In this document: one piece after another, positions 6,105 through 22,223 of the stretch
Numbering within the stretch: the stretch's first letter is position 1
How the letters are laid out: the number at the start of each line of letters is the position of its first letter
From: Pseudonocardiaceae bacterium
GTDB taxonomy: Bacteria; Actinomycetota; Actinomycetes; Mycobacteriales; Pseudonocardiaceae
Direction of reading: 5' to 3'
DNA length: 29,467 bases
Assembly (NCBI GenBank): GCA_025937115.1
Contig: JAICSB010000002.1
Coordinates: forward strand, 1 to 29,467
The notes under the pieces: generated by a model
Told to the model about the DNA's origin: nothing
The model's input: only the letters and a program-made list of their open reading frames with translations
Databases searched by the model: none
Translations under genes and position numbers: made by a program

Positions 6105-9100
6105 GTGGGTGATGAGTTTTGGGGCGTGGTGTCTTTGAGCACGAACGTCAATCTCGGCGAGTCGGCCCGAAATGGGAAGTCGCACACAGCGGCGGGCTTG
6201 GTGCGCCCCTCTCACTCGCCGATCGACGATGCCGACCTCGACGCCACCCGACCATCGCGCAGCGTGGTCGCCCGACCACGCTGGGAGACGCGCTACGCCC
6301 GAGCTGCGGTCGCCTCGGACCTAGCGGCAACGGCTGTGTCCATCGCGCTGCATCAGTGGTGGGGCCGGACGTCCGGGTATGAACTGCAGGTCGTGCTCGG
6401 CCTGGTTCTCATGGCGCTGACGGCCGCCGTCCTTAGCCTCACACGGGTCTGGGACCCTCCGGTCCTGGGCCAGGGCTCCGAGGCGTTCAGCCGGCTCCTG
6501 CGCGGCCTCGTCACCGTCGCAGTGGTGGTCGGACTGGTCGGGTTGGCGCTGAAGCGGTCCGAGGTCCGGCCATATGTCTTCGGCGTGATCCCAGTGGCGT
6601 TCATCCTGGCCGTGGCCGGTCGCCTGGTCCTGCGCAAGGTGTTGCACCAGCGTCGCCGCAAGGGCGCCTACATGCACGATGTCCTCGCCGTCGGTACCGA
6701 GGACGCGGTGGCCGAGCTCATCGTGCGCACCAGGCGGGCCACCCACCACGGCTGGGCGGTTATGGGTGCCTGCACACCCACCGGAACCGGCACCGGCGGC
6801 GGCCGCAGCATCCTCGATGTGCCTGTCCTCGGTGACCTGGACTCGGTGGCGAAGGTCGCAGAAAACTGCCGGCCCCGCGTGGTGTCGGTAGCCCAGACAC
6901 CGGGTTGGAGCTCGCGCCGGCTGCACCATCTGGCCTGGGACCTCGAGGGCACGGGCACCGAACTGGTGGTTGATCCCGGCCTCATGGAGATCGCCGGCCC
7001 CCGGCTGCACGTCGCCGCGGTTGACGGCCTACCGCTGCTGCGACTCACCGAGCCTGCGTTCACCGGGGTCCCGCGGATGATCAAGGCGTTGGGTGACCGG
7101 CTGGCGGCCGCCCTGCTGCTGCTGACGATCGCGCCGATACTGGTCGTTTTGGCGATCGCTGTGCGCAGCGATGGCGGGCTGGTCTTCTCCCGTCAGTCGC
7201 GAGTCGGCAAACACGGCAAGCACTTCTCGATGATCAAGTTCCGGTCCATGGTGGTGAAGGCCGGTCAGCGCCAGTCCGAGTTCGCGGACGATAACCAGGC
7301 CTCCGGTCCGCAGCTCACGCTGCGCGAGGACCCTCGGGTGACGCGAGCGGGCGCCTTCCTGCGAAAGTATTCACTCGACGAGTTGCCCCAGCTCTTCAAT
7401 GTGCTATTGGGGTCGATGTCGATGGTCGGCCCCCGACCACCGCTGCCCGACGAGGTCGCCCACTACTCCCGGGATGCGCAACGCAAGCTGCTCGTCAAGC
7501 CGGGGCTGACGGGGCTGTGGCAGATCAGCGGCCGCAGCGACCTGTCCTGGGAGGAATCGGTTCGGCTGGACCTGCGCTACGTGGAGAACTGGACCCTCGC
7601 GCTGGACGCCTCGATTCTCGGGAAGACCATCGGCGCGATCCTGCGGCGTACGAGCGGAGGCGGGTCGACGACAGATGACCGGAGTTTGTGCTTTTCGGGT
7701 CTAGGTCCAGTCAGCGACTCGGACTTAACTACGGAGCGCGACGCTCGAACGCTCGAAACACCGACACGAGACGCCTCACCACCCGAGGAACCGGCATCCG
7801 ACGTACCGCCGTGTGAGCTCCCGCCATCCATCGCTCCCGAATCCACGACAGTCGATCAACTTGGCAGAGTACGAGCTAAGCCGTTTCTGTGGGGAATCGC
7901 CCTGCGGTTCGGTGTGGCCCCTGTGCTGCTGACCATCGACCTGCTCGCCTTTTCTGGCGCGGTGCTGCTGAGGCCAGGCTTGGTCTCGGGCACGACGATC
8001 GTCCTTGGTGTCCTCATTCTTTGCTTGATCGCCGCCGGTGGGTTCTATCGGTCCAGGGCGCACCTGTCCGTCCTCGACGATCTCCCGGTTTTACTTGGAC
8101 GCGTGCTTATCGCTGGCATGTTCATGACGTCAGTAGACGTGATCCGCGGCGGTTACCAGGCTCGGGCGGCGATCCTGGCTACCGTAGTATTCGCAGTCTT
8201 GGCGGTCTGCGGGCGTTCGCTTGCCTATGCCGGGCTGCGTCGCGCGCGCCGTTTCGGCGTCGCCAATCACCGAACGCTCGTCGTCGGCGGAGGTCAGCTC
8301 GCCAGCGAGCTCATCAACACCATGCTTGAACACCCGCAGCACGGCCTGCATCCTGTCGGCTTCATCGACACGAAGCCGATGCAGCACCTCGGCCGGCACC
8401 GGATCCTGGTCCCCCATCTGGGGTGCATGGCCGATCTCGCGAGAGTCATCGTGGAGTTCAACATCCGAACCGTGGTCGTCGCCTTTAGCTCGACCCCCGA
8501 GCGAGCCGTGGTCGAAACCTTGCGGGAATGCGATCGATTGCGCTGCGAGATTTTTGTCGTACCCAGGTTCTACGAACTCGGCGTGGTCCACCGCGACACT
8601 GAACTGGTGTGGGGGTTACCTCTGGTCCGGCTGCATCGGGCGACCCACCGCACCATCTCATGGAAGATCAAGAGAGTGCTTGACGTGGTACTCAGCGCAG
8701 TGTTGTTGGTGGTGCTGCTGCCGGTGTTGGAGACGTGCGCCCTGCTTGTCTATTACGAGACGGGTAGGAACGTGCTATTTCGCCAGGAACGGGTGGGGCT
8801 CGACGGTCGACTGTTCATGTTGCTCAAGTTCTGCACGCTCAGACCGACCGATGGCGCCGAGGCATCCACCAAATGGAGCATCGCGAATGATAGCCGGGTC
8901 GGACCTCTTGGTCGCATGCTGCGGATGACCTCGCTGGACGAGTTGCCCCAGCTCTGGAATATCCTACGTGGCGATATGAGCCTGGTTGGGCCCCGCCCCG
9001 AGCGCCCCTTCTTTGTCGAGAAGTTCAGCCGACAGTACCCTCGGTACATAGGACGCCACCGGGTGCCGTCTGGGCTCACTGGATTGGCACAGGTGAACGG

Positions 9101-9233
9101 CCTGTGCGGCGATACCTCAATAGGTGATAGGGCCAATTTCGACAACTTCTACATCGAGAACTGGTCTTTGTGGGAGGATTGCAAGATCCTCTTGCGAACA
9201 GTCGGGCAGGTCTTCCGATGGGCCGGACGATGA
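6105..9233 (+). CDS. Tandem double polyprenyl-phosphate sugar-1-phosphate transferase (two WbaP/CpsE-like units fused)
   Basis: The 1042-residue protein contains two complete initiating transferases. Unit 1 (about 60-515) has four N-terminal helices, a Rossmann-like middle (190-320), a membrane anchor (about 330-352), 'KFRSM' (K378), the catalytic 'SLDELPQ' (D425-E426) and 'VGPRP' (441-445). Unit 2 (about 598-1042) repeats the order: helices from 600, 'LVVGGGQLASEL' near 728, anchor about 856-885, 'KFCTL' (K908, with Cys replacing the usual Arg), 'SLDELPQ' (D945-E946) and 'VGPRP' (961-965). A Pro/Ser/Thr/Glu-rich linker (about 518-597) joins them. Such enzymes move a sugar phosphate from a nucleotide sugar onto undecaprenyl phosphate at the inner membrane face. 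Single enzymes are about 450-500 residues, so this is double length. GTG 6105 has no clear ribosome site; GTG 6126 and 6129 are alternatives. Confidence 0.9.
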   Translation: MGDEFWGVVSLSTNVNLGESARNGKSHTAAGLVRPSHSPIDDADLDATRPSRSVVARPRWETRYARAAVASDLAATAVSIALHQWWGRTSGYELQVVLGLVLMALTAAVLSLTRVWDPPVLGQGSEAFSRLLRGLVTVAVVVGLVGLALKRSEVRPYVFGVIPVAFILAVAGRLVLRKVLHQRRRKGAYMHDVLAVGTEDAVAELIVRTRRATHHGWAVMGACTPTGTGTGGGRSILDVPVLGDLDSVAKVAENCRPRVVSVAQTPGWSSRRLHHLAWDLEGTGTELVVDPGLMEIAGPRLHVAAVDGLPLLRLTEPAFTGVPRMIKALGDRLAAALLLLTIAPILVVLAIAVRSDGGLVFSRQSRVGKHGKHFSMIKFRSMVVKAGQRQSEFADDNQASGPQLTLREDPRVTRAGAFLRKYSLDELPQLFNVLLGSMSMVGPRPPLPDEVAHYSRDAQRKLLVKPGLTGLWQISGRSDLSWEESVRLDLRYVENWTLALDASILGKTIGAILRRTSGGGSTTDDRSLCFSGLGPVSDSDLTTERDARTLETPTRDASPPEEPASDVPPCELPPSIAPESTTVDQLGRVRAKPFLWGIALRFGVAPVLLTIDLLAFSGAVLLRPGLVSGTTIVLGVLILCLIAAGGFYRSRAHLSVLDDLPVLLGRVLIAGMFMTSVDVIRGGYQARAAILATVVFAVLAVCGRSLAYAGLRRARRFGVANHRTLVVGGGQLASELINTMLEHPQHGLHPVGFIDTKPMQHLGRHRILVPHLGCMADLARVIVEFNIRTVVVAFSSTPERAVVETLRECDRLRCEIFVVPRFYELGVVHRDTELVWGLPLVRLHRATHRTISWKIKRVLDVVLSAVLLVVLLPVLETCALLVYYETGRNVLFRQERVGLDGRLFMLLKFCTLRPTDGAEASTKWSIANDSRVGPLGRMLRMTSLDELPQLWNILRGDMSLVGPRPERPFFVEKFSRQYPRYIGRHRVPSGLTGLAQVNGLCGDTSIGDRANFDNFYIENWSLWEDCKILLRTVGQVFRWAGR

Positions 9234-10495
9234 CAGCCGAACTATCCGCGCATGTCACCGGGAAGAGATTCGTGCGCGTCGTCCATCTCATCCACTCGCT
9301 CGAACCCGGTGGTGCTGAGGCGGTCTTAGTGGACCTGGCGCGAGCTGCGCCAGCGGCAGGCTTGGAGCTGGCAGTGATGCCGCTGGTCCGGCCGCGGGAC
9401 GAGCGGTATCTGGCGGCGCTGCGGGAGCTCGACGTCGCAGTGCTCGTCCTCGACCTGCCGTCGCGATGGGACGTGCGGGCGTTCCCCCGGTCGCTGTCCC
9501 TGCTGCGCGCCTGGCACCCAGACGTGGTGCACACCCACCTGAAGCACGCAGACCTCGTCGGAGCCGTGGGAGCACGAAGGTTGGGACTGCCGATGGTGTC
9601 GACGTTGCACATCGTCGACAACCACGCTGGAGCGGTGGCGGGGTTCAAGCGGCGCCTCGCCGCCACCGGACGGTTGGCCACGGCCGCACGGACGATCACC
9701 GTCTCCGAGGCGCAGCGCCGCTGGTATCTCGACGCGTTCCCCAGCGCGCATCCCGATCGCGTCGTCACCATCCACAATGGCATCACCGATCCCGGCAGGA
9801 TTTCCCCCGGGCGCCCAGGGTCCGAAGCCGTGCGCCGCTCGCTCGGCATCCCCCCCGGGGCGGTTGTCGTGGCACAGGTGGGGATGCTCCGCGAGGGCAA
9901 GGGGCACCACGACCTGATCACCGCGCTCGGGCTGCTGGGTGATATTCCGGATCTGCGGGTCCTCATCGTGGGTGACGGGCCGTTGCGGCGCTCGCTCGAG
10001 CTCGCGTGCGTTCCCCTGCGCGACCGCCTGCAGTTCACCGGCTATCGCGAGGACGTTCCAGCGCTGCTTGAGGCGGTGGACGTTGTCGTCCAGCCAAGCG
10101 AGTTCGATGCGCTGCCGACCACACTGATCCAAGCGCTCGCCGCAGGCCTGCCGATAGTGGCGACTGCAGTCGGTGGAATTCCCGAGATCGTTACGCCGGA
10201 CGAAGGGATTCTCGTCCCGCCGCGCAACCCCGTGGCGTTAGCGGGCGCGATTCGCGCACTCGCCACCGACCGGGAACGGCGCGCTGCGCTCGGCGGTGCG
10301 GCCCGGTCCCGGTTCGAGCGGAGTTTTGAGGCCTCGAACTGGGCGGCCCGGCTGCGCAGCCTGTATGTCGAAGTACGCGGGAGTCATGGGCAGAACCAGG
10401 GTCGCTGCGCCGCGTCCTCCGATCCTGGTCATCTCCCCGTCCAGCAGGAGCACCGCAGAACATGGGGACCGCACGACACCGGAGGCGTCATATGA
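9230..10495 (+). CDS. GT4-type glycosyltransferase
   Basis: The protein (421 residues from ATG 9230) is a GT-B fold transferase: an N-terminal acceptor domain with the glycine loop 'HSLEPGGAEAVLV' and 'PDVVHTHLKHADL', and a C-terminal donor domain with 'VGMLREGKGHHDLI', 'VGDGPLR' and 'PSEFDALPTTLIQALAAGLPIVATAVGGIPEIV'. In the EX7E motif region, the usual second Glu of 'xxEAMA' is Gln ('LIQALA'), a change at a donor-binding residue. It should act on the lipid-linked acceptor in the cytoplasm. ATG 9230 overlaps the previous stop as ATGA; ATG 9218 is an alternative. About 40 low-complexity residues follow the last helix, up to the stop that overlaps the deacetylase start. It resembles the minus-strand GT4 at 17760-18881 and is probably a paralogue. 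Confidence 0.88.
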   Translation: MTAELSAHVTGKRFVRVVHLIHSLEPGGAEAVLVDLARAAPAAGLELAVMPLVRPRDERYLAALRELDVAVLVLDLPSRWDVRAFPRSLSLLRAWHPDVVHTHLKHADLVGAVGARRLGLPMVSTLHIVDNHAGAVAGFKRRLAATGRLATAARTITVSEAQRRWYLDAFPSAHPDRVVTIHNGITDPGRISPGRPGSEAVRRSLGIPPGAVVVAQVGMLREGKGHHDLITALGLLGDIPDLRVLIVGDGPLRRSLELACVPLRDRLQFTGYREDVPALLEAVDVVVQPSEFDALPTTLIQALAAGLPIVATAVGGIPEIVTPDEGILVPPRNPVALAGAIRALATDRERRAALGGAARSRFERSFEASNWAARLRSLYVEVRGSHGQNQGRCAASSDPGHLPVQQEHRRTWGPHDTGGVI

Positions 10496-11439
10496 GCGAT
10501 CGCCTTCTCATTCTCTGCTGGCACAACATCGATCCGACGCCAGCCTTCCCGGCTCCTGCCGGTCACGGCAGGCAGGGCTTCGAACGTCAGCTCAAGTTCC
10601 TCGCACGGTTCACCACGGTCATCAGATTGTCGACCGCGCTCGACCTCATCGAGCGCGACGAGCCGCTGCCCCCCCGTGCTGTGGTCTTGACCTTCGACGA
10701 CGGGTACCGGGACATGCTCGATGTCGCGGTACCTACGCTCGCCCGAACGGGGTTGCCGGCGACATTCTTCCTCGTCCCCAGCTTCCTGTCTGGCAGGATC
10801 CGGGCCTGGTGGGAGGATCTGGCCGCGGCGTTTGATCGGACTGATGCTGACGAACTGACATGGAACGGCGTTCGCCATGACTTGGGGACGCCGACAGCTC
10901 GACGCCAGGTGCACGACCGTCTGCTCGCGCCGCTCAAGCGCCTCGACCACGCCGCCCGAGAGGACGCCGTGCACCAGTTGGCCGGGCTGCTGACGCCCGG
11001 CGAGCCTGCCCCGGCCGGGGAGCACTTCCTGGATTGGGACGGTGCGCGCGCTCTCGTCTCTGCCGGACACGAGGTGGGCTCGCACTCAGCCCGCCACGTG
11101 ATCCTCAGCCGGGAGACCGTTCAGGTCCAGGCCGTAGAGCTAGCGGACTCCCGCGCCGAGCTTCAGTCCGGGCTCGGCGTGCGGGTCGACACCGTCGCCT
11201 ACCCGAACGGCACCGGAGAGGACTATGATGACACGACTCTGCACATCGCGCGGGAGACCGGCTACCGATGTGCGCTGACAACTCGCTTAGGGTTGGCGCA
11301 ACGCGACCACTCACCGTACGAGATGCGGCGGGTCGTGATCGGCCCGACAACGAATGCGTCGAGCGTCGCGCGGTACGGCTGGCAGACCGCTCGAAACACG
11401 TTGAGGGCGCGGACGCTGCAAACCAGCGGTCGGCGCTGA
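10492..11439 (+). CDS. Polysaccharide deacetylase (NodB/CE4 family)
   Basis: The 315-residue protein shows the CE4 metal-binding motifs: 'TFDDGYRD' (D69-D70) and 'HSARH' (H198, H202), followed by 'VAYPNGTGEDYDD' in the place of the RxPxG/YPxG motif. 'LCWHNIDP' at the N-terminus is the common opening of polysaccharide deacetylases in sugar clusters. No signal peptide is visible, so it probably acts in the cytoplasm on a lipid-linked intermediate or precursor, removing an N-acetyl group from a HexNAc residue. ATG 10492 overlaps the upstream stop as ATGA, with GGAGG at 10481-10485 six bases away. Presence of this gene suggests that the polymer contains an amino sugar. Confidence 0.88.
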   Translation: MSDRLLILCWHNIDPTPAFPAPAGHGRQGFERQLKFLARFTTVIRLSTALDLIERDEPLPPRAVVLTFDDGYRDMLDVAVPTLARTGLPATFFLVPSFLSGRIRAWWEDLAAAFDRTDADELTWNGVRHDLGTPTARRQVHDRLLAPLKRLDHAAREDAVHQLAGLLTPGEPAPAGEHFLDWDGARALVSAGHEVGSHSARHVILSRETVQVQAVELADSRAELQSGLGVRVDTVAYPNGTGEDYDDTTLHIARETGYRCALTTRLGLAQRDHSPYEMRRVVIGPTTNASSVARYGWQTARNTLRARTLQTSGRR

Positions 11440-11444
11440 GGAGC

Positions 11445-12419
11445 ATGAACCGCGACGTCGACCAGCGCGATCCCTCGGTGTCGGTCGTCGTACCTACGCG
11501 CAACGAGGCAGTGCGCCTACCCGCCTTGCTGGACTCCATCGAGGCGCAGACGTGGGTGCCCGTCGAGGTGATCATCGTGGACGGAATGTCCACCGACGGC
11601 AGCCGGGACTGGTTAGCCAATGTGGCGACGTCCCGGCCGTGGATGGCTGTTGTGGACAACCCGGCCCGAAATATCCCCGCTGCGCTCAACACGGGGCTGC
11701 GCCGCGCGCGGGGTGATCTGGTGGCGCGGATGGACACCCACGCCGACTACGCCCCGGACTACATCGAAGCGCTGGTGCGCGTGCTCCAACGCCGCGTCGA
11801 AGTTGTCGGCGCCGGCGGAGCGATGGACAGTGCCGGGCGAGGACAGTGGGGCCAGGCGATCGCGGCGGTCCTGCGCCGGCCCGTGGGCATGGGAGGTGCC
11901 CCGCATCGGGTGGGCGCGGAGGAGGGACCGGTCGATCACGTATTCACCGGCTGCTACCGCAGGGCGGCGCTGTTGCAGGTGGGCGGATTCGACCAGCGGC
12001 TACTCGCCAATGAGGATTTCGAGCTTGACACCCGGCTCCGCAAGGCCGGCGGGACCGTGTGGCTCGTCCCGCAAGCCCGATCGCTGTGGTATGTCCCCGA
12101 GTCGCTGCCGGCGCTGGCCAGAAAGATGTTCCGCTACGGTCGGTTCAAGGCTATGACGCTGCGTATGCATCCGGAGTCGATAAAGGTCCGTCAACTCGCT
12201 CCCCCATCACTGCTCGTGGGGCTGCTTGGCCTGGGGGTCGTCCGCCCGCAGTGGGGTGTGACAGCGACCGGCGTCTACCTCGGTGCCGCGGCCGCGGCCG
12301 GCGCCCGCGCCGGAGCTGCGGACGACGCGTCACCGTGGCGGGCCGCGATGGTGCCGCCCGTCGTGCACCTATGTTGGGGCGCCGGCCTGCTGGCAGGTCT
12401 GGTCCGGGCCCCCGCGTGA
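11445..12419 (+). CDS. GT2-family glycosyltransferase, ExoA-like
   Basis: The 324-residue protein begins with 'PSVSVVVPTRNEAVRLPALLDSI', has 'IIVDGMSTDGS' (D46), the metal-site region 'ARMDTHADY' (D97) and 'LANEDFELDTRLRKAG' (E190-D191), and ends in hydrophobic segments (about 245-320). This resembles ExoA of succinoglycan synthesis, a non-processive inverting enzyme adding one sugar to the lipid-linked repeat unit at the membrane. ATG 11445 lies five bases after the deacetylase stop and has GAGGAG just upstream. The stop overlaps the flippase GTG as GTGA. Confidence 0.88.
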   Translation: MNRDVDQRDPSVSVVVPTRNEAVRLPALLDSIEAQTWVPVEVIIVDGMSTDGSRDWLANVATSRPWMAVVDNPARNIPAALNTGLRRARGDLVARMDTHADYAPDYIEALVRVLQRRVEVVGAGGAMDSAGRGQWGQAIAAVLRRPVGMGGAPHRVGAEEGPVDHVFTGCYRRAALLQVGGFDQRLLANEDFELDTRLRKAGGTVWLVPQARSLWYVPESLPALARKMFRYGRFKAMTLRMHPESIKVRQLAPPSLLVGLLGLGVVRPQWGVTATGVYLGAAAAAGARAGAADDASPWRAAMVPPVVHLCWGAGLLAGLVRAPA

Positions 12420-13930
12420 CCTCGACACCGGGCCGGACGCCGGCCACCGAGGATCCCAACGCGCCCGGGGTTGCACAGACCGGACGCCAGGTGTCCTGGA
12501 ACTACTTGGTCTTCGCGCTGAGCAAGTCCTCGACACTGATCATGACGGTGATCCTTGCGAGGATCTTGACCCCGGCCGATTTCGGGTTGTTCGCCCTCGC
12601 CCTTCTGGTGCTCAACGTGTTCGACTACACCAAGGACCTAGGCGTCACCCTGTCGTTGGTCCAACTACGCGGGCCCTGGCAGCGGCTCGCGCCCACGGGC
12701 TTGACCCTGTCTGTCGTCTTCGGGTTGCTTGCCAGCGCGGCCGCGTTGTTCCTCGCCCCGATCATCGCAGCTGGACTTCGGCACCCCGAGCTGGTGCCGC
12801 TGGTTCAGGTGCTGGGGGCCGGGTTGCTCATCTCGTCGCTGGGCGCGGTTCCAGTGTCGTTGTTGCGTCGGCAGATCGACTTCCGCGGCCGGTTGGTTCC
12901 CGAGGTGTCCGGAGCGCTTGTCAAGACGGTCCTGTCGGTCGGGCTCGCGCTGGCCGGGCTCGGGGTATGGAGCCTGATCTGGGGGCAGCTGGCCGCCTCC
13001 GTGCTCACTTCGCTGATGTACTGGGGGGTCGCACGGACGACCGTGCGCCCTGGTTTCGACCGCTCCGTCGCCGTCGAGCTGACTCGGTTCGGACTCCCCG
13101 CCACACTGGTCAGCCTCGTTGCCTTCGGGATCTACAACTGCGACTACGTGGCTATCGGGCGCCAGCTCGGTGACGAGCAATTGGGTTTCTACACGCTGGC
13201 CTATCGCCTGCCTGAACTGGTCGTCCTGATGTTGTGCAACACCGTCAGCGAAGTGCTGTTCAGCTCCCTGTCCCGCTGGCAGCACGACCGTGCGGCGCTG
13301 GCCGACCATTACATGAGTGCTGTTCGCGTCGTCCTGGCGCTGGCCGCCCCACTCGGCTTCGGGATGGCAGCGCTGGCACCCGAGACCGTGGAGGTCCTTT
13401 ACGGGCGCGACTACTCCGAATCGGCGAATGAGCTAGCGGTCCTCGCCGTGTTCACGGTGATCTACGCGGTGACGTTCCACTCTGGGGACGTATATAAAGC
13501 GACGGGGCGAGCGGCCCTGTTGACGCTGATCAACCTTGGGAAGTTCGTAGTGCTGGCTCCCGCGGTGTGGTTCGCCGCGCACCGCGACATCTTGGCCGTG
13601 GCTGTCACAGTGCTCGCGGTTGAGGTGCTGCACTGCGCGGTGCGGCTCTTCATGATTCGGTGGGTCATCGGAGTCAGCTTCTCCCGGCAACTCCGGACAT
13701 TCTCGGGTCCGCTCGCGGCTGGCGCAGGCATGGCGCTTTTCGTGTGGAGCGCCGCTCATCTAGTGGAACCAGCTCCCCTCCCGATCCGGGTCGTTGCCCT
13801 CCTCGCGCTCGGTGGCGCCCTATACGCGGGCTTTGTGAGGATATTCGCACCAGACCTCTTCCGTCAGGGGGAGGCTGTGCTCCGGACGTTCAGAAAGTCA
13901 AGGAGCGCAGGAGGCGGTGATCCTCGATGA
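12416..13930 (+). CDS. Wzx-type oligosaccharide flippase (MATE/MOP superfamily)
   Basis: The 504-residue protein is hydrophobic throughout, with about 12-14 membrane helices, and opens with 'GRQVSWNYLVFALSKSSTLIMTVILARILTPADFGLFALALLVLNVF', the characteristic N-terminal pattern of Polysacc_synt/Polysacc_synt_3 flippases (WzxC-like, relaxed-specificity type). It should turn the undecaprenyl-linked repeat unit from the inner to the outer face of the membrane for polymerisation by the Wzy encoded two genes later. GTG 12416 overlaps the upstream stop by four bases and its stop overlaps the next ATG as ATGA, so the gene is translationally coupled on both sides. Confidence 0.9.
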   Translation: MTSTPGRTPATEDPNAPGVAQTGRQVSWNYLVFALSKSSTLIMTVILARILTPADFGLFALALLVLNVFDYTKDLGVTLSLVQLRGPWQRLAPTGLTLSVVFGLLASAAALFLAPIIAAGLRHPELVPLVQVLGAGLLISSLGAVPVSLLRRQIDFRGRLVPEVSGALVKTVLSVGLALAGLGVWSLIWGQLAASVLTSLMYWGVARTTVRPGFDRSVAVELTRFGLPATLVSLVAFGIYNCDYVAIGRQLGDEQLGFYTLAYRLPELVVLMLCNTVSEVLFSSLSRWQHDRAALADHYMSAVRVVLALAAPLGFGMAALAPETVEVLYGRDYSESANELAVLAVFTVIYAVTFHSGDVYKATGRAALLTLINLGKFVVLAPAVWFAAHRDILAVAVTVLAVEVLHCAVRLFMIRWVIGVSFSRQLRTFSGPLAAGAGMALFVWSAAHLVEPAPLPIRVVALLALGGALYAGFVRIFAPDLFRQGEAVLRTFRKSRSAGGGDPR

Positions 13931-14592
13931 GTTCCCAGGTGCCTCGTCTCGTCGGGACTGCAAGGGGGAACGTGAGTCTCAGGAATCGGAGCTTTTGGCT
14001 CAGCACAGTGGCGGGTCTACTCGGAGCGCTCGTAGCAGCCGCGATCACGCTCGTGGTCGCGACAGTGAGCTCACACAATCATCGCGCACAGATGGAATTG
14101 GCGATGCTTCCCAGCGGTGCGCTCACTCCGCAAGAGGTGCCTTCCTTCTGGGAGGCGTTGAGCCAGGGCCAGGTTACTCGCACCGCAGCCGAGGTGTTCG
14201 GCCAGCGGCGCTGGGTGCCGGCGGCCGCAGCAGCCGCAGGCGTACCGGCATCATCGTTGGTCCTGGGCGCCGGTGTAGTGCCGAACACCACCTTGATGCG
14301 GGTCACGATGGAGGCGGGTTCGGCGTCCGCTGCGGAACGTGCCCTCACCGCAGAAGTACAGCAGGCGCAGCCGCTCGCACAGCAGGTATCCGGCCCGTTC
14401 ACTATCGTGATCATTCAAGGCGCCGAGGGCACTGCCATTCCCATAGGGCCGCCCGTCAAGCAGCTAGTGATCGTCCTGGCAGCCGGTGGCTTCCTCGTCG
14501 CGGCCGGCATCACGTCGCTGATGATGGGCAGGAGCGCTCTCGCACCGGTCGCCGGATCTCCCGAAGCACCCGGTCCTGTAGTTGGCTCATGA
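13927..14592 (+). CDS. Wzz-like two-helix membrane protein (chain-length control candidate)
   Basis: This 221-residue protein has a membrane helix at about 24-46, an extracytoplasmic region of about 130 residues, and a second helix at about 178-199, the Wzz/polysaccharide co-polymerase topology. Sequence motifs are weak: the outer region includes 'SSLVLGAGVVPNTTLMRVTMEAGSASAAERALTAEVQQAQPLAQQV', resembling the strand and helix segments of actinobacterial Wzz-like proteins. No BY-kinase domain or C-terminal Tyr cluster is present. It sits between flippase and polymerase with ATGA overlaps on both sides. A chain-length role is inferred from topology and position; a scaffold role is possible. 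Confidence 0.65.
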   Translation: MSSQVPRLVGTARGNVSLRNRSFWLSTVAGLLGALVAAAITLVVATVSSHNHRAQMELAMLPSGALTPQEVPSFWEALSQGQVTRTAAEVFGQRRWVPAAAAAAGVPASSLVLGAGVVPNTTLMRVTMEAGSASAAERALTAEVQQAQPLAQQVSGPFTIVIIQGAEGTAIPIGPPVKQLVIVLAAGGFLVAAGITSLMMGRSALAPVAGSPEAPGPVVGS

Positions 14593-16682
14593 CGCACACC
14601 ATCGTGATGGTCGACTCGATCATCACGAAGGTCGAGCGTCTGAACGTTCGCCGCCATCTTGACCGCATCAACCTGGGCTGGTCGATGCTCCTGCTGGGTA
14701 CGCTCACGGCGGTGACCGCGCTGCTCGCCTCGCCCACTGCGGCGATGATCTTCGCGGTCGGAGTCGTGATGGTGGTCCTAGCCGCTGTCGTGGTGGTGCG
14801 GCCAGCCGTCACGTTGGCTTTACTGGTGGTCGGCGAGTTCACCAACGTGGCGGTCGTCCTCAAAGACGCTATACCCGGCAGCATTCAGACGGGTATCTTC
14901 GCGCTCGGCACCGCCTCGGTGCTGCTGGCGGTCCGTCACCCGCAGATGCGAGACCGCCTGCGCCGGCCGGTGCTCACGCCGCTGGTCTTGTTCGTGCTCT
15001 ACTTACTCAGCCTCGTCCCGGCCATCATAAGCACCGCGTCCCGGGAGTCGACCGCCCTTGTCCTCGCCGCCTCGCTGAAGGACGCTGTCTTCCTCGGGCT
15101 CGTGCTGCTGCTGACCCACATCGTCAACGCGCCGTGGTGGGTTGCAAAGCTAATGGTCGCACCGCTCGCCGTGCTGGCCGCCCTGACCGTGCTCAACCAG
15201 TTCCTGCTCGGAAACTCCACGTCGTTCGGTGGCTTTGCAAACGTCTCTGCTTCCCTCGGGGAGCTCACGACGACCGCTCGGCACGCGGGCCCGACGCAAG
15301 ACCCGAATTTCTGGGGGCGCAACCTTCTGATTGGCCTGCCTTTCGCCTACGCGCTGGTGCAACGATCTGTCGAGAAATACCAGGTCCGCTCGATTGTGGG
15401 GTGGTCGCTGTCGACGGTGGCGATCTGGCTCGGCATCTATCTCACCCAGTCCCGAGGTGCTGTGATCGCTACTGCGGTGCTCACCGGGGTGTGGGTGCTC
15501 GCCGCCGGGCCCGCCGTGCGGCGGGTGGGGCTCCTGCTTTCACCACTCGGTGCGCTGCTGATCCTCATCCCGGGCGTCGGTGATCGCCTTTTGACGCTGT
15601 CGCAGTTCGAGGGCAGCTCGGCCGACCTTTCCCTTGTCGGTCGTGTCGCGGCACAGGAGATGGGCCTGGCGATGTTCGGTGACCATCCCTTGTTCGGAGT
15701 CGGCCCGGGTGCGTTTTCGTCTTTGACCTATGCCTATGGCAGCCGGTCGGCCGCCGCGCAGCACGTGATTGGGCCCCTGATCGACGCACCCCACGACCTC
15801 TACCTGCAGATCGCCGCCGAGTCCGGCCTCATCGGCGTCGCCGGGTGGTCGGTGCTCATCGTGGGCGTAGCCGCGATGGCGACGCGATCGATGGTGCGGT
15901 TGGTCCACGTGCGCGCTGCAGGGTCCCATGAGGGGGCAAACCGGGTCCTCGCGGCGGCTGCACTGACCTCCATCGTGGGCTGGTCCGTCGCCAGCGTGTT
16001 CCTGCACCAAGCCTATGTTCGCGAGCTCCTGGTGGTCTTCGCCCTCACTGCGCTGATCTACGCCCAGTCCCGCGCCACCCCGCGGCCCAACGCCGAGGTC
16101 AGGGCGACCCTCCGAGCCGATGTGCGCCACGCCGCGCGCCGGTCAGCCGTCCTCCTGGTTGGCGCGGCAGTGGTCATAGGTGGGGCAATATCCGTACTTC
16201 TCGCCGCAACCCGGACCTCCTACGTGGCCCAGCGGACCCTGAGCCTGCAGGCCCAGCCCAGCGATGTCGAGGGCTATGCCCTCAACGTCCGCGCGCGCAC
16301 CGCGGTAGTGCCGACGTTGGCCGCGCTGATCGCGCCGGGGCGCCCAAATGTCACGGTCACCGGTGACCCGACGTCCGGCGTGGTCACCATGGTCGGGAAG
16401 GGCGACACGCCGCAGCAGGCCGTTCGCCTGGTCCAGAGGGCAGCGCAGCAGGCATCCGCCGGACTCCGGCGCCCGGGTGTGGAGCCAGGTTATTCGGTCA
16501 TCTCGATCAGCGACGACGTCGTCCGAGCCGAGCGCGTGTACCAAGCAGCGGCTGTGTGGTGGGCTCTCGCCTGCGGCGCGCTTACCCTCGTCGTTGTGGT
16601 GTTCGCAGCCCGACGGAGTCGACTCTGGTCCGGAGCCAGGCCCGTGGGAGCCGACGACCGCGGCCGAGTTCGGGTGCAGTGA
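14589..16682 (+). CDS. Wzy-type polymerase fused to a C-terminal Wzz-like module
   Basis: The 697-residue protein has two parts. Residues about 30-505 form roughly 11 membrane helices with the O-antigen ligase/polymerase region, including 'PTQDPNFWGRNLLIGLPFAYAL', 'LTQSRGAVIATAVLTG' and 'FGDHPLFGVGPGAF' on the outer loop. Residues about 515-680 form a second unit: a helix (518-537), then 'TSYVAQRTLSLQAQPSDVEG', 'NVRARTAVVPTLAALI' and 'TSGVVTMVGKGDTPQQAVRLV', and a closing helix (about 655-675), the Wzz/PCP arrangement. Polymerase and co-polymerase are usually separate proteins. The family normally polymerises flipped repeat units on the outer face. The reading frame is continuous, and start and stop overlap the neighbours (ATGA, TGATG). 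Confidence 0.85.
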   Translation: MTHTIVMVDSIITKVERLNVRRHLDRINLGWSMLLLGTLTAVTALLASPTAAMIFAVGVVMVVLAAVVVVRPAVTLALLVVGEFTNVAVVLKDAIPGSIQTGIFALGTASVLLAVRHPQMRDRLRRPVLTPLVLFVLYLLSLVPAIISTASRESTALVLAASLKDAVFLGLVLLLTHIVNAPWWVAKLMVAPLAVLAALTVLNQFLLGNSTSFGGFANVSASLGELTTTARHAGPTQDPNFWGRNLLIGLPFAYALVQRSVEKYQVRSIVGWSLSTVAIWLGIYLTQSRGAVIATAVLTGVWVLAAGPAVRRVGLLLSPLGALLILIPGVGDRLLTLSQFEGSSADLSLVGRVAAQEMGLAMFGDHPLFGVGPGAFSSLTYAYGSRSAAAQHVIGPLIDAPHDLYLQIAAESGLIGVAGWSVLIVGVAAMATRSMVRLVHVRAAGSHEGANRVLAAAALTSIVGWSVASVFLHQAYVRELLVVFALTALIYAQSRATPRPNAEVRATLRADVRHAARRSAVLLVGAAVVIGGAISVLLAATRTSYVAQRTLSLQAQPSDVEGYALNVRARTAVVPTLAALIAPGRPNVTVTGDPTSGVVTMVGKGDTPQQAVRLVQRAAQQASAGLRRPGVEPGYSVISISDDVVRAERVYQAAAVWWALACGALTLVVVVFAARRSRLWSGARPVGADDRGRVRVQ

Positions 16683-18948: not shown

Positions 18949-20175
18949 TTAGAATGCCAAGCTCCACGCTGGCCCCCGTCGACCCATCGCCCGCCGGGTC
19001 AGCGCAGGACCCGCGTACCACGTGCCAGTAATGAAGCGGTTGATCGGTCCGAAGCTGTGTACCGCTACGGACCCGAGAAAGTGCAGCCCTGGCACCGAGG
19101 ACTCGAAGCCGGTCCGCAGTTCCGGTATGCCTTCACTGCACCGCACGGCGGCCAGGAGTTCGGGGGCAAGCAGCCCGAATCGACGGATGTCGATCTCATA
19201 ACCAGTGCCGAGCAGGACGTGGTCGGCGGTCAGAACGTCCCCGCCCTCGAGTGCAACTTCGACCTCACCCTCCTCGGCAACGGTCACCTTGTCGACACGT
19301 CGCGCGAGGTGCATCGGCACGTCAGCGAGTCGCGCCCGGAGCAGGTGGGCTCCCGCGGGGCGCAGGCACCCGCGCTGTACCCAGCGGCGCATTCGATTCG
19401 GCAATAGGTGATACGTGTCCGGAGCGGCCGCCAACCACCCGGTGACGACCCCACCCACGTCCGTGGGCGCCCGGGGCAACCCCGGTGGCTTCTTGCCTAC
19501 GGGCAGCATCGGGGAAAGCCAGTTAATCTGGGGAGACCGGGAAACAATCTGTACCTTTGCGCCTGCCTCGTGGGCGATCGCGGCGGACTCGAGCGCGCTC
19601 TGGCCCGAGCCGATCACCAGGAGCCTGCGCCCAGCGAAACCGGCTAAGTCCAGGTTGTCGGCGACGTGGGAGACCGCCTGGTCAGGTGCCGCTGCCGCGA
19701 CCTCGGCGGGCCACTGGGCTGAGGACTGGAACCCGAGGGCCACTACGACCCGCCGGGCAGCGACCCGAGCTCCGTCGCCGAGACGGAGCACGAATCCCTC
19801 CCTGCTCGGGCCGAGGACTTCGGCGCAGGAGATCCGCTCAACGCGACGAGGATCGACGTCCGGAACGGCTTTCTCGATCCACCAGGATGCGTAGTCGAGG
19901 AAGTCCTGCAGTGGGATTGGTTGCGAGATCGACCGGCCGACTTCCGTGGCCCAGTCCTCGATCCGCAAGCCGGATTGGGGGTGGGCGATCGATGACGCCC
20001 GCAATGACGACCGCAGCAGCATCCGCGAGGGCATTCCGGTGCGCCATGACCCCATTCCTTCGCCGAAGATATGTACCCGTAATCCGGCGTCGCGGAGATA
20101 GGCGGTCGCTGCAAGCCCGTAGGGACCGGCGCCGACGACGGCGACGTCGACAGCTACAGCGCGTTCACCCTTCAC
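18949..20175 (-). CDS. FAD/NAD(P)-binding oxidoreductase (flavin monooxygenase-like)
   Basis: The 408-residue protein has an N-terminal FAD site 'VAVVGAGPYGLAATAYL' (G15-x-G-x-x-G20), a mid-protein second dinucleotide site 'LLVIGSGQSALESA' (about 189-193) and 'DHVLLGTGYEIDIRRFG' near the C-terminus, the layout of flavin-containing monooxygenases and lysine/ornithine N-hydroxylase-like enzymes. The stretch 'GSWRTGMPSRMLLRSSLRASSI' is typical of this group. The substrate is unknown; in this setting it could oxidise a sugar amine or a small acyl or amino-acid substituent. GTG 20175 overlaps the stop of the ATP-grasp/FkbM gene as GTGA, so the two products are made together. Confidence 0.8.
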   Translation of the reverse strand: MKGERAVAVDVAVVGAGPYGLAATAYLRDAGLRVHIFGEGMGSWRTGMPSRMLLRSSLRASSIAHPQSGLRIEDWATEVGRSISQPIPLQDFLDYASWWIEKAVPDVDPRRVERISCAEVLGPSREGFVLRLGDGARVAARRVVVALGFQSSAQWPAEVAAAAPDQAVSHVADNLDLAGFAGRRLLVIGSGQSALESAAIAHEAGAKVQIVSRSPQINWLSPMLPVGKKPPGLPRAPTDVGGVVTGWLAAAPDTYHLLPNRMRRWVQRGCLRPAGAHLLRARLADVPMHLARRVDKVTVAEEGEVEVALEGGDVLTADHVLLGTGYEIDIRRFGLLAPELLAAVRCSEGIPELRTGFESSVPGLHFLGSVAVHSFGPINRFITGTWYAGPALTRRAMGRRGPAWSLAF

Positions 20176-22223
20176 CAGGATGCCAGTCCCGCCCAGCGAC
20201 CATTCGGCTCAATCGCGACGAAGTTGTACCCACGGTCGGGGTCCCTTTTCAGCTCGTCGAGTTCCGTGGAGTCGCGGACGGGGACCAGCGCGGCACCATC
20301 ATGTCTATAGACCGCCAGTCCGCGGTCGAGGAGGTACCGAGTGACCGTGTGGGACGGGTCGCTGCCGTGATCCTCGTACACGATCAGACAGCACCGCAGC
20401 ACCGCAGCACCGCCCTGCAATGCAGCCACCTCAGCACCCTCGATGTCGAGCTTAAGGATCGCCGGCGCGTTTCCCGCGTACGAGCTGTACAGCTCCTCGA
20501 CAGTAATGGTGGGGACGGATGCCGACCGGGATCCAGCGCCGTCGACAACGCTCGCGCTCGCAGGGATGACCGGATCCCACGTGACGCGGATCGGGTCGCT
20601 GCTACACGACCAGACCGCTGCGTGCACGGCGTGGAAACCGTTCACTTCAGCGTTGTGCCGCAGCTGGTCGTACATCGGAGGAACGGCCTCCACTGCCACC
20701 GCCGTCACGACGGGGGCGTACCTGGTTGAGAAGTAGCCGATATTCGCTCCGCAGTCCAGGAGCATGGCCGCTGGCTCGTGGGCGATCGCCGCGTCGATGA
20801 TCGCCGAGACCTCAGGCTCGTAGCCCCATCCGACGAGCAGGCGGGACCAGTACGGGTCGCCGAGCCGCACGTCCAGCCGCCCGCCGCTGTCGAAGACAAC
20901 CGTCGCAATTGGGTCACCTCCGAACAAGCTCGCTAGCACGGCGCTCGCTCGGTAGGTGTGCCCCGTCCGGGCCGCCGTCCGCAGGAGGGCCATCTGCAGG
21001 GACGCCCTCCTACCCATGGTCTTCACGATCATCGGATCCGTCCGTGCTCGTGGCCATCTCGGGTCGTAACGTCTTGCGATCCGGGCAGCGACCACTCCAG
21101 TAAGCTGGAGAAGTCGAGCCACTAGTGGAGCCGGGTCGCGAAGCGAAAAGTAGGCGTGCACGGTCTTGCTTCGGGGACGCAGGACCGCCGCCGCGGAGCC
21201 CGGCCGGCCGTCGCGCAGAAAGCGCCCGACGTGCCGGACATCACCGTCCTCCCATCGGTAGCGGTGCCCCGCTCGCGCCCGAACTGGCGCATACCCGCGA
21301 TCGAGGAGATGGTCGCACCAGATCGCCGGCAGATTCGCCCCCGCGCTGATCGCGAGCGCTAATGAGCCGTAGATCCGAGGGTTGAAATCGATGGGGCGGA
21401 AGATGCCGTCATCTCCGCGCACAAGCTCGAGCTCGAACACGCCGCGCCACTCCAGCGCGACGACGAGAGCTTTGACCTTGGAGAGCAGGGCCGAGGGTGC
21501 GTGCTGCGTCTCGGCGGATGTCACGTTCCCCGCGCCGGGAGGCCATGTCCTTTCGTAGCGCGCAAAGGAAGTGCCGAGCAGACCGGTCGCTGCAGCCACC
21601 CCGCCCAAGGAGTATGTGGTGCCGCGCGTCCGGGGCTGGACGAGCACCGGTTCACCGAACCGCGCCAACAGCTCCGTGAGCTCCCGCTCGGTGGTCGCTA
21701 CGCGACCGCCCTGCTGCTCAAGGCGACCTCCGCGGTCGATGAGGGAGAATCGCGGCTTGACGATGACGGGGAAGCCGAACCGTCGGGCGGCGAGCCGCGC
21801 GGATTCCGCGTCTCGGCACATCTCGGTCTCGGGTGAGACCATGTCTGCGGCCTCCGCCGCACGGGCCAGGCCGAGCTTGTCGAGTGAGCGCTGCACGGCG
21901 TCGTGGCTCGGAAAGCCGTGCGCTACACCTTCCAGGAGGTCGCGATTTCCGGACAGCGCCCGCAGCGACGCATCGCAGCCTGGCAGGACAATGTCCACCC
22001 GTTGAGCGACGGAAATCTCGGCGACCTGCGCGGTGAACCTCCGCGGATCATTCAGCGGATCGGAAACGACACGACACGTCGCCGCAGCTCGGGTCCACAA
22101 TCGCGGCGCTGGTGCGCGCGTAGCAACCACCACCACTCGGTACCCGTGCGCATTGATCGCCCGCGCGGCCGCAAGCACCGCACGCTCCGGAGCAGACGTG
22201 ATGAGGACCGTCGGGTGATTCAC
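20172..22223 (-). CDS. ATP-grasp ligase fused to FkbM-type methyltransferase
   Basis: The 683-residue protein joins two enzymes. Residues about 1-400 are an ATP-grasp ligase: a 'VLITSAPERAVLAAARAINAHGYRVVVVAT' pre-ATP-grasp fold, 'RFGFPVIVKPRFSLIDRGGR' (ATP-binding Lys), 'EPVLVQPRTRGTTYSLGG' and 'ELELVRGDDGIFRPIDFNPRIYGSLALAI' (metal-binding E/N). Residues about 425-675 are an FkbM-type SAM methyltransferase: 'AMLLDCGANIGYFSTRYA' near 490, 'AVEAVPPMYDQLRHNAEVNGF' and 'PAILKLDIEGAEVAALQGG' near 590. ATP-grasp enzymes join a carboxylate to an amine via acyl phosphate; FkbM-type enzymes usually O-methylate sugars or polyketides. The fusion suggests an amide-linked, methylated decoration. GTG 22223 has AGGAG just upstream. 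It heads the three-gene minus-strand operon. Confidence 0.85.
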   Translation of the reverse strand: MNHPTVLITSAPERAVLAAARAINAHGYRVVVVATRAPAPRLWTRAAATCRVVSDPLNDPRRFTAQVAEISVAQRVDIVLPGCDASLRALSGNRDLLEGVAHGFPSHDAVQRSLDKLGLARAAEAADMVSPETEMCRDAESARLAARRFGFPVIVKPRFSLIDRGGRLEQQGGRVATTERELTELLARFGEPVLVQPRTRGTTYSLGGVAAATGLLGTSFARYERTWPPGAGNVTSAETQHAPSALLSKVKALVVALEWRGVFELELVRGDDGIFRPIDFNPRIYGSLALAISAGANLPAIWCDHLLDRGYAPVRARAGHRYRWEDGDVRHVGRFLRDGRPGSAAAVLRPRSKTVHAYFSLRDPAPLVARLLQLTGVVAARIARRYDPRWPRARTDPMIVKTMGRRASLQMALLRTAARTGHTYRASAVLASLFGGDPIATVVFDSGGRLDVRLGDPYWSRLLVGWGYEPEVSAIIDAAIAHEPAAMLLDCGANIGYFSTRYAPVVTAVAVEAVPPMYDQLRHNAEVNGFHAVHAAVWSCSSDPIRVTWDPVIPASASVVDGAGSRSASVPTITVEELYSSYAGNAPAILKLDIEGAEVAALQGGAAVLRCCLIVYEDHGSDPSHTVTRYLLDRGLAVYRHDGAALVPVRDSTELDELKRDPDRGYNFVAIEPNGRWAGLASW

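Follow-up and report, generated by a model that had tools for sequence, protein, structure and literature searches.

The window analysed here, a 29,467-nucleotide stretch from a Pseudonocardiaceae bacterium, contains an open reading frame (ORF) of 1042 residues that joins two complete large monotopic phosphoglycosyl transferases (Lg-PGTs) in one chain. The frame (6105-9233, + strand) is single and uninterrupted; it starts with GTG 6105 and its stop codon occupies 9231-9233. Its product matches PF02397 twice and PF13727 twice in a Pfam search, with SLDELPQ beginning at residues 423 (unit 1) and 943 (unit 2) and VGPRP at 441 and 961; the original prediction of two whole units in a single frame is thereby confirmed. 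We favour, with roughly even confidence, a covalent Lg-PGT heterodimer derived from fused neighbouring genes, with unit 2 as the main enzyme and unit 1 as a specialised or weakening partner.

6105-7652 (+): unit 1 (residues 1-516), a whole Lg-PGT that belongs to the TIGR03025 type, with Actinomycetospora-type genes as nearest relatives (Pfam, TIGR03025, tree, AlphaFold2)
6279-6659 (+): unit 1 four-helix transmembrane bundle (residues 59-86, 92-112, 125-148, 152-185; AlphaFold2 model, hydropathy)
6663-7052 (+): unit 1 cytoplasmic domain of unknown function (DUF; CoA_binding_3/Rossmann-like, about residues 187-316), with β-hairpin 303-314
7065-7649 (+): unit 1 re-entrant helix and catalytic domain (residues 321-515)
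7311-7319 (+): unit 1 QLT (residues 403-405), LFK in relatives; F404L and K405T at 99% conserved columns (conservation count)
7377-7382 (+): unit 1 dyad D425-E426 within SLDELPQ, intact (motif search)
7653-7877 (+): linker (residues 517-591), predicted disordered, low third-position GC, one weak in-frame start (composition, model)
7878-9230 (+): unit 2 (residues 592-1042), a whole Lg-PGT from an actinobacterial subfamily that leans towards WcaJ (Pfam, TIGR scores, tree)
8256-8639 (+): unit 2 cytoplasmic DUF (about residues 718-845) and C-terminal hairpin (PF13727 at 694-820; low-confidence model)
8646-9224 (+): unit 2 re-entrant helix and catalytic domain (residues 848-1040)
8937-8942 (+): unit 2 dyad D945-E946 within SLDELPQ, intact (motif search)

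Two complete units in one frame

Each unit is an Lg-PGT. Both combine PF02397 with an Asp-Glu dyad, and a four-helix bundle with a Rossmann-like DUF is seen in the unit 1 model, in the two PF13727 stretches and in a low-confidence model of unit 2. Described Lg-PGTs carry a single unit per chain; with two in one frame, the whole protein is a variant of the class. A KF(R/C) motif had also been predicted in each half, and both are present. The KFC of unit 2 recurs in several unit-2-type single genes (KFCSLRP and alike), so it is no lesion, and its reading as a sign of decay was ruled out.

Both units pass the exopolysaccharide sugar transferase subfamily model TIGR03025 (372.2 and 367.5 bits for units 1 and 2, cut-off 295.55). 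Neither half reaches the WcaJ equivalog TIGR03023 (283.1 and 332.6 bits, below 410.75) or the WbaP subfamily TIGR03022 (274.5 and 219.3 bits, below 403), whereas the whole protein passes both (611.2 and 489.6 bits, respectively). Annotators should be warned that an automatic WcaJ or WbaP name would mislead here.

The P/E/S/T-rich linker, put at about 80 residues in the original prediction, is real but closer to 75 (517-591). Disorder is predicted for it by the tandem model, in which the predicted local distance difference test (pLDDT) score is <50 over residues 508-637, and third-position GC is 0.52-0.66 in linker windows versus 0.66-0.92 in the rest of the ORF. The sole in-frame ATG, GTG or TTG inside it is TTG 7686, with a badly spaced GGAG, so that unit 2 lacks a good start and its separate translation is unlikely; the next in-frame starts, GTG 7914 and 7923, fall within the first membrane helix of unit 2. 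Unit 1 is without the C-terminal GAY that forms the terminus of 115 of 139 database relatives. Nearly all relatives (148 of 152) end 3-7 residues past the aligned catalytic domain, and three of the other four extend by 131, 161 and 229 residues. Both alternative forward frames are interrupted by stops within 7560-7920.

The same tandem architecture recurs in P0002, a database protein (3 member sequences) encoded on a 6642-bp ENA contig, whose start is the residue encoded by window GTG 6126. Downstream of that start it has no indel relative to the window protein and differs by five substitutions (L359P, R460H, S539T, V783L, V835M). As judged by sequence comparison, a different contig carrying the same fusion with five differing residues argues strongly against assembly error. 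The fusion is genuine. It is also rare, since no listed match spans both units in 397, 38 and 60 genomes; these sets overlap, the first being the order of G001 (the genome holding the Actinomycetospora callitridis locus L010), with no more than two candidates scored per genome shown and a listing that covers part of the matches. No two-unit ORF occurs among the 80 relatives kept of 147, and none of 1035 matching plasmid records covers 80% of the window protein (P0001) at one place.

Halves from distant clades and neighbouring genes

In a 66-row tree (quick method, LG+G4, SH-aLRT support only; 20 of 60 of each single-unit type and 12 of 41 other tandems included), units 1 and 2 fall into two separate, distant clades, each with support of 100. 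The phylogeny proposed in the original prediction therefore identifies the protein, at the level of sequence, as a fusion of paralogues and not a duplication. Among the 120 matches listed of 754, those nearest to unit 1 are database proteins at 55-61% identity; the gene of G001, in what we call the Actinomycetospora family, has 58%. The nearest relatives of unit 2 are genes of Geodermatophilaceae and of a Frankiales metagenome-assembled genome, at 52-55% identity.

Genes of the two types are neighbours in some relatives. For the Blastococcus family, named after locus L001 of genome G002 (placed by NCBI in the Geodermatophilaceae), 38 genomes were covered, and a unit-2-type match at E<=1e-50 is present in 12. 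Nine of these 12 (G002, G291, G091, G173, G150, G124, G063, G117, G156) have a unit-1-type match within 35 kb on the same contig, and in three (G173, G150, G063) the unit-1-type gene lies directly upstream of the unit-2-type gene on the same strand, the order seen in the fusion. The genes are separate in all three, those of G150 sharing one frame with a single stop between them.

L112 6243-9680 (-): neighbouring Lg-PGT genes on one strand, unit-1 type first and unit-2 type second, sharing a frame broken by one stop
L113 7732-11056 (-): neighbouring Lg-PGT genes on one strand, unit-1 type first and unit-2 type second
L114 6757-10025 (+): neighbouring Lg-PGT genes on one strand, unit-1 type first and unit-2 type second

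An 'open frame' of 1146 residues in G150 was considered as a third fusion and rejected, the two adjacent genes being one stop apart. Loss of that stop would yield a protein shaped like that of the window, and the same event may have taken place in the window's ancestor.

Unequal conservation of the units

Conservation was counted against 149 of 153 unit-1-type and 92 of 104 unit-2-type single-unit relatives and restricted to columns with a conservation of 95% or more. No near-invariant position is changed in unit 2 (0 of 63), against 7 of 74 in unit 1: E127A, P359L (window only), F404L, K405T, L440M, S497T and V512I. Only 1 of the 149 relatives departs as often; with the proline 359 of P0002 the count falls to six, matched by 4 of 149. 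Lowering the threshold to 90% gives a single change in unit 2, R1001C, in 80 columns. At the LFK position, WbaP entries of the PDB have FK (TFKL), and unit-2-type enzymes mostly read W-S or W-N, so the loss of LFK from unit 1 need not end its chemistry.

Structure models

AlphaFold2 modelled unit 1 alone with a pLDDT of 80.8 and a predicted template modelling (pTM) score of 0.74, its DUF hairpin formed by strands 303-306 and 309-314. The tandem was folded on 43 tandem rows only; a joint alignment with 60 + 60 single-unit rows placed all 60 unit-2 rows on unit 1, and mixed sets behaved likewise. The low-confidence tandem model puts the unit 2 helices at 605-620, 627-645, 656-681 and 686-716. 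A DUF-like fold, 3nkl, is matched over 189-847 of the tandem model versus 189-316 of unit 1 alone, both ranges being end points only. The longer match would fit a unit 2 hairpin inside the unit 1 DUF, with residues 821-850 near pLDDT 50 and a pTM of 0.47. Folding the protein as an intramolecular dimer, as originally suggested, thus gives a hint of hairpin exchange, including a swap of the unit 1 hairpin to unit 2, from a weak model (pTM 0.47); an intramolecular pseudo-dimer is likely, if unproven.

A covalent heterodimer and its alternatives

Dimers have precedent in this class. PMC10942596 describes WbaP as a homodimer formed through swapped DUF hairpins, with active sites 77 Å apart, and proposes the DUF as a regulator responsive to uridine monophosphate (UMP); PMC12802240 models EpsW as activating EpsZ through promotion of the dimer. 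With the two clades and the neighbouring genes, these accounts make the covalent heterodimer raised in the original prediction the best reading, its geometry being something we infer. On this view, an actinobacterial polysaccharide locus would have held two adjacent Lg-PGT genes from different subfamilies, and these would have been joined in frame, a linker replacing the stop and intergenic stretch and the start of unit 2 being lost. Four helices per unit would leave both termini in the cytoplasm, so that a head-to-tail fusion is topologically allowed. The two four-helix bundles would then lie side by side with the DUFs paired as in WbaP, and both catalytic domains would be cytoplasmic, as the helix number is even. 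Unit 2 is predicted to do the main job, transfer of hexose-1-phosphate from a UDP (uridine diphosphate)-sugar to undecaprenyl phosphate via Asp945-Glu946. Unit 1 would be a permanent dimer partner whose active site is complete but whose loop is altered, either specialised for another donor or drifting towards a structural or regulatory role.

Several observations weigh against this reading, the rarity of the fusion among them. Confidence in the tandem model is low (mean pLDDT 56.6, pTM 0.47), so that it offers only a hint of inter-unit geometry. In the Actinomycetospora family (60 genomes), 13 genomes hold both types at E<=1e-70, yet a spacing below 40 kb is seen in just three, G001, G270 and G191, at about 11, 17 and 39 kb. 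The remaining ten carry the two types either on separate contigs or at a distance of about 790 kb. Unit-1-type genes also pair with each other (G191, 1.4 kb apart; G189), so that several PGTs per locus are common in these bacteria and closeness need not mean partnership. Finally, window unit 1 shares about 49% identity with the unit-1 genes found in adjacent pairs, below the 58% of the G001 gene, so that the paired genes are not proven orthologues.

A second reading, which we consider unlikely, makes the protein an initiator of two specificities, with both units active on different UDP-sugars, so that one protein starts lipid-linked chains of two kinds or picks its donor. Both dyads and catalytic domains are complete, the units come from different clades with differing WbaP and WcaJ scores (274.5/219.3 and 283.1/332.6 bits), and donor choice might be tuned by the change that unit 1 shows at the LFK position. 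Yet neither half is at the WbaP or WcaJ cut-off, the near-invariant LFK is gone from unit 1, and two polymers are not evident from the 20 scanned window ORFs, which include one flippase ORF and one Wzy_C ORF.

That unit 1 is a decaying passenger, losing function in a fusion that stop loss created without benefit, seems improbable. Its seven changed near-invariant positions, the P359L found in the window and absent from P0002, and the odd third-position composition of the linker would all suit decay. On the other side, unit 1 has no stop, frameshift or deletion in either assembly, and its dyad, KFR and VGPRP are intact. Between the window protein and P0002 there are two substitutions per unit, so unit 1 is not the faster at that scale, and it folds confidently, although a model does not show activity. 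An erroneous joining of two ordinary genes within the linker is barely credible: relatives with adjacent gene pairs exist and no fusion is listed for the genome sets searched, but the P0002 contig has the same frame and linker (one linker substitution) with five differing residues, both other forward frames have stops at 7560-7920, and unit 2 is without a good start.

Genomic surroundings

The ORFs downstream of the fusion gene form, by their domain content, a Wzx/Wzy-type polysaccharide locus.

9170-10495 (+): GT4 glycosyltransferase-domain ORF that overlaps the 3' end of the fusion gene (domain scan)
10462-16682 (+): ORFs with polysaccharide deacetylase, GT2, flippase (PF13440) and Wzy_C domains (domain scan)

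Beyond the Wzy_C region lie GT4, oxidoreductase, ATP-grasp/FkbM and other ORFs. PF02397 has no match in the 20 other window ORFs scanned, so no initiating enzyme other than the tandem protein was seen in the window. A 683-residue ORF (20172-22223, -) matches ATP-grasp-like (below cut-off) and FkbM methyltransferase profiles in one frame. Upstream of the fusion gene are a mutator-family transposase ORF (PF00872; 3200-4471, +) and a methyltransferase ORF (1564-2244, -) that matches the second half of its Pfam profile only and is possibly truncated.

Comparison with other tandem proteins and known systems

A long-protein search gave 104 matches. A composite query gave 3085, and its listing covers 120 of these, which leaves room for further tandem families. 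Among the matches listed, 203 proteins (the window protein included) have at least 770 residues, and 43 of them contain two PGT regions: P0001, P0002 and 41 others.

P0129, P0131-P0134, P0136-P0151, P0225, P0227, P0229, P0262, P0269, P0282, P0296, P0303-P0307, P0311-P0313, P0315-P0319: at least 41 tandem clusters, 852-909 residues, some near-identical

The original prediction knew of no standard tandem architecture and named a search finding such units common and previously described as its refutation. For tandems as such that statement needs amending, with at least 41 other clusters; for two complete units it holds, as all 41 have a truncated first catalytic domain (match ending at profile position 109-149 of 192) and both units are whole in P0001 and P0002 alone among the 203 long proteins listed. 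The first units of these proteins of about 870 residues have PGxTG in 0 of 41, GPRP in 2 and D-E-L-P in 18. Their first and second units are sister clades (support 99 and 97) in the 12 of 41 placed in the tree, so the family arose by internal duplication. No host turned up among 198 genomes from the phylum of G400 (locus L052, Acidobacteriaceae) or among 194 from that of G401 (locus L030, Verrucomicrobia), searched at E<=1e-110, a result that is uninformative without a known positive. With P0129 as query, 1 of 1035 plasmid records covers 80% at one place.

Judged by titles and abstract openings, none of the papers listed in literature searches treats a protein that carries two PGT domains; an earlier mention is possible in the sequence-network survey of the superfamily that O'Toole et al. 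reportedly presented in 2021.

Other long proteins carry different partners. Many of about 1200-1300 residues, some named Oscillospiraceae, combine an Lg-PGT with Wzy_C (PF04932; P0226, P0230-P0233, P0235-P0243 and others), and one such cluster, P0281, has 3111 members. Other long matches join PF02397 to NACHT, GT2, GT4, flippase or epimerase domains.

A broader proposal, which we advance tentatively and hold to be possible rather than probable, is that tandem Lg-PGTs evolved at least twice, by duplication and by fusion of two subfamilies, because an unequal covalent dimer is useful, one half catalytic and the other a scaffold or UMP-sensing regulator; the window protein would be a stage with both sites whole. 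If so, it is a natural heterodimer that could be cut, swapped and assayed per half. The protein bears on why Lg-PGTs dimerise and on whether both sites of a dimer must work: with two different complete units per chain, active sites could be killed singly without mixed assemblies. Taken with the family of about 870 residues, it provides a natural gradation between chains that keep both sites whole and chains that keep one.

That family (P0129, P0136, P0145 and 38 further clusters) resembles the window protein in having two Lg-PGT units per chain in collinear alignment, as the six displayed of the 41 aligned rows show; it differs in that its units are sister clades and its first domain truncated, where those of the window protein are from distant clades and both whole. 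In PMC10942596 and PMC12802240, WbaP (PDB 8t53) and other described Lg-PGTs are single-unit chains that form dimers, whereas the window protein has two different units in one chain. Bi-PGTs, bifunctional monotopic PGTs (monoPGTs), likewise fuse a PGT catalytic domain to another functional domain; the partners that PMC10942596 describes are other functional domains on a monoPGT catalytic domain, and that of the window protein is a second Lg-PGT. The EpsZ-EpsW system of Myxococcus shares with it an Lg-PGT whose activity is thought (PMC12802240) to be controlled by dimer formation, but there a separate response regulator promotes the dimer, and in the window protein the link is covalent.
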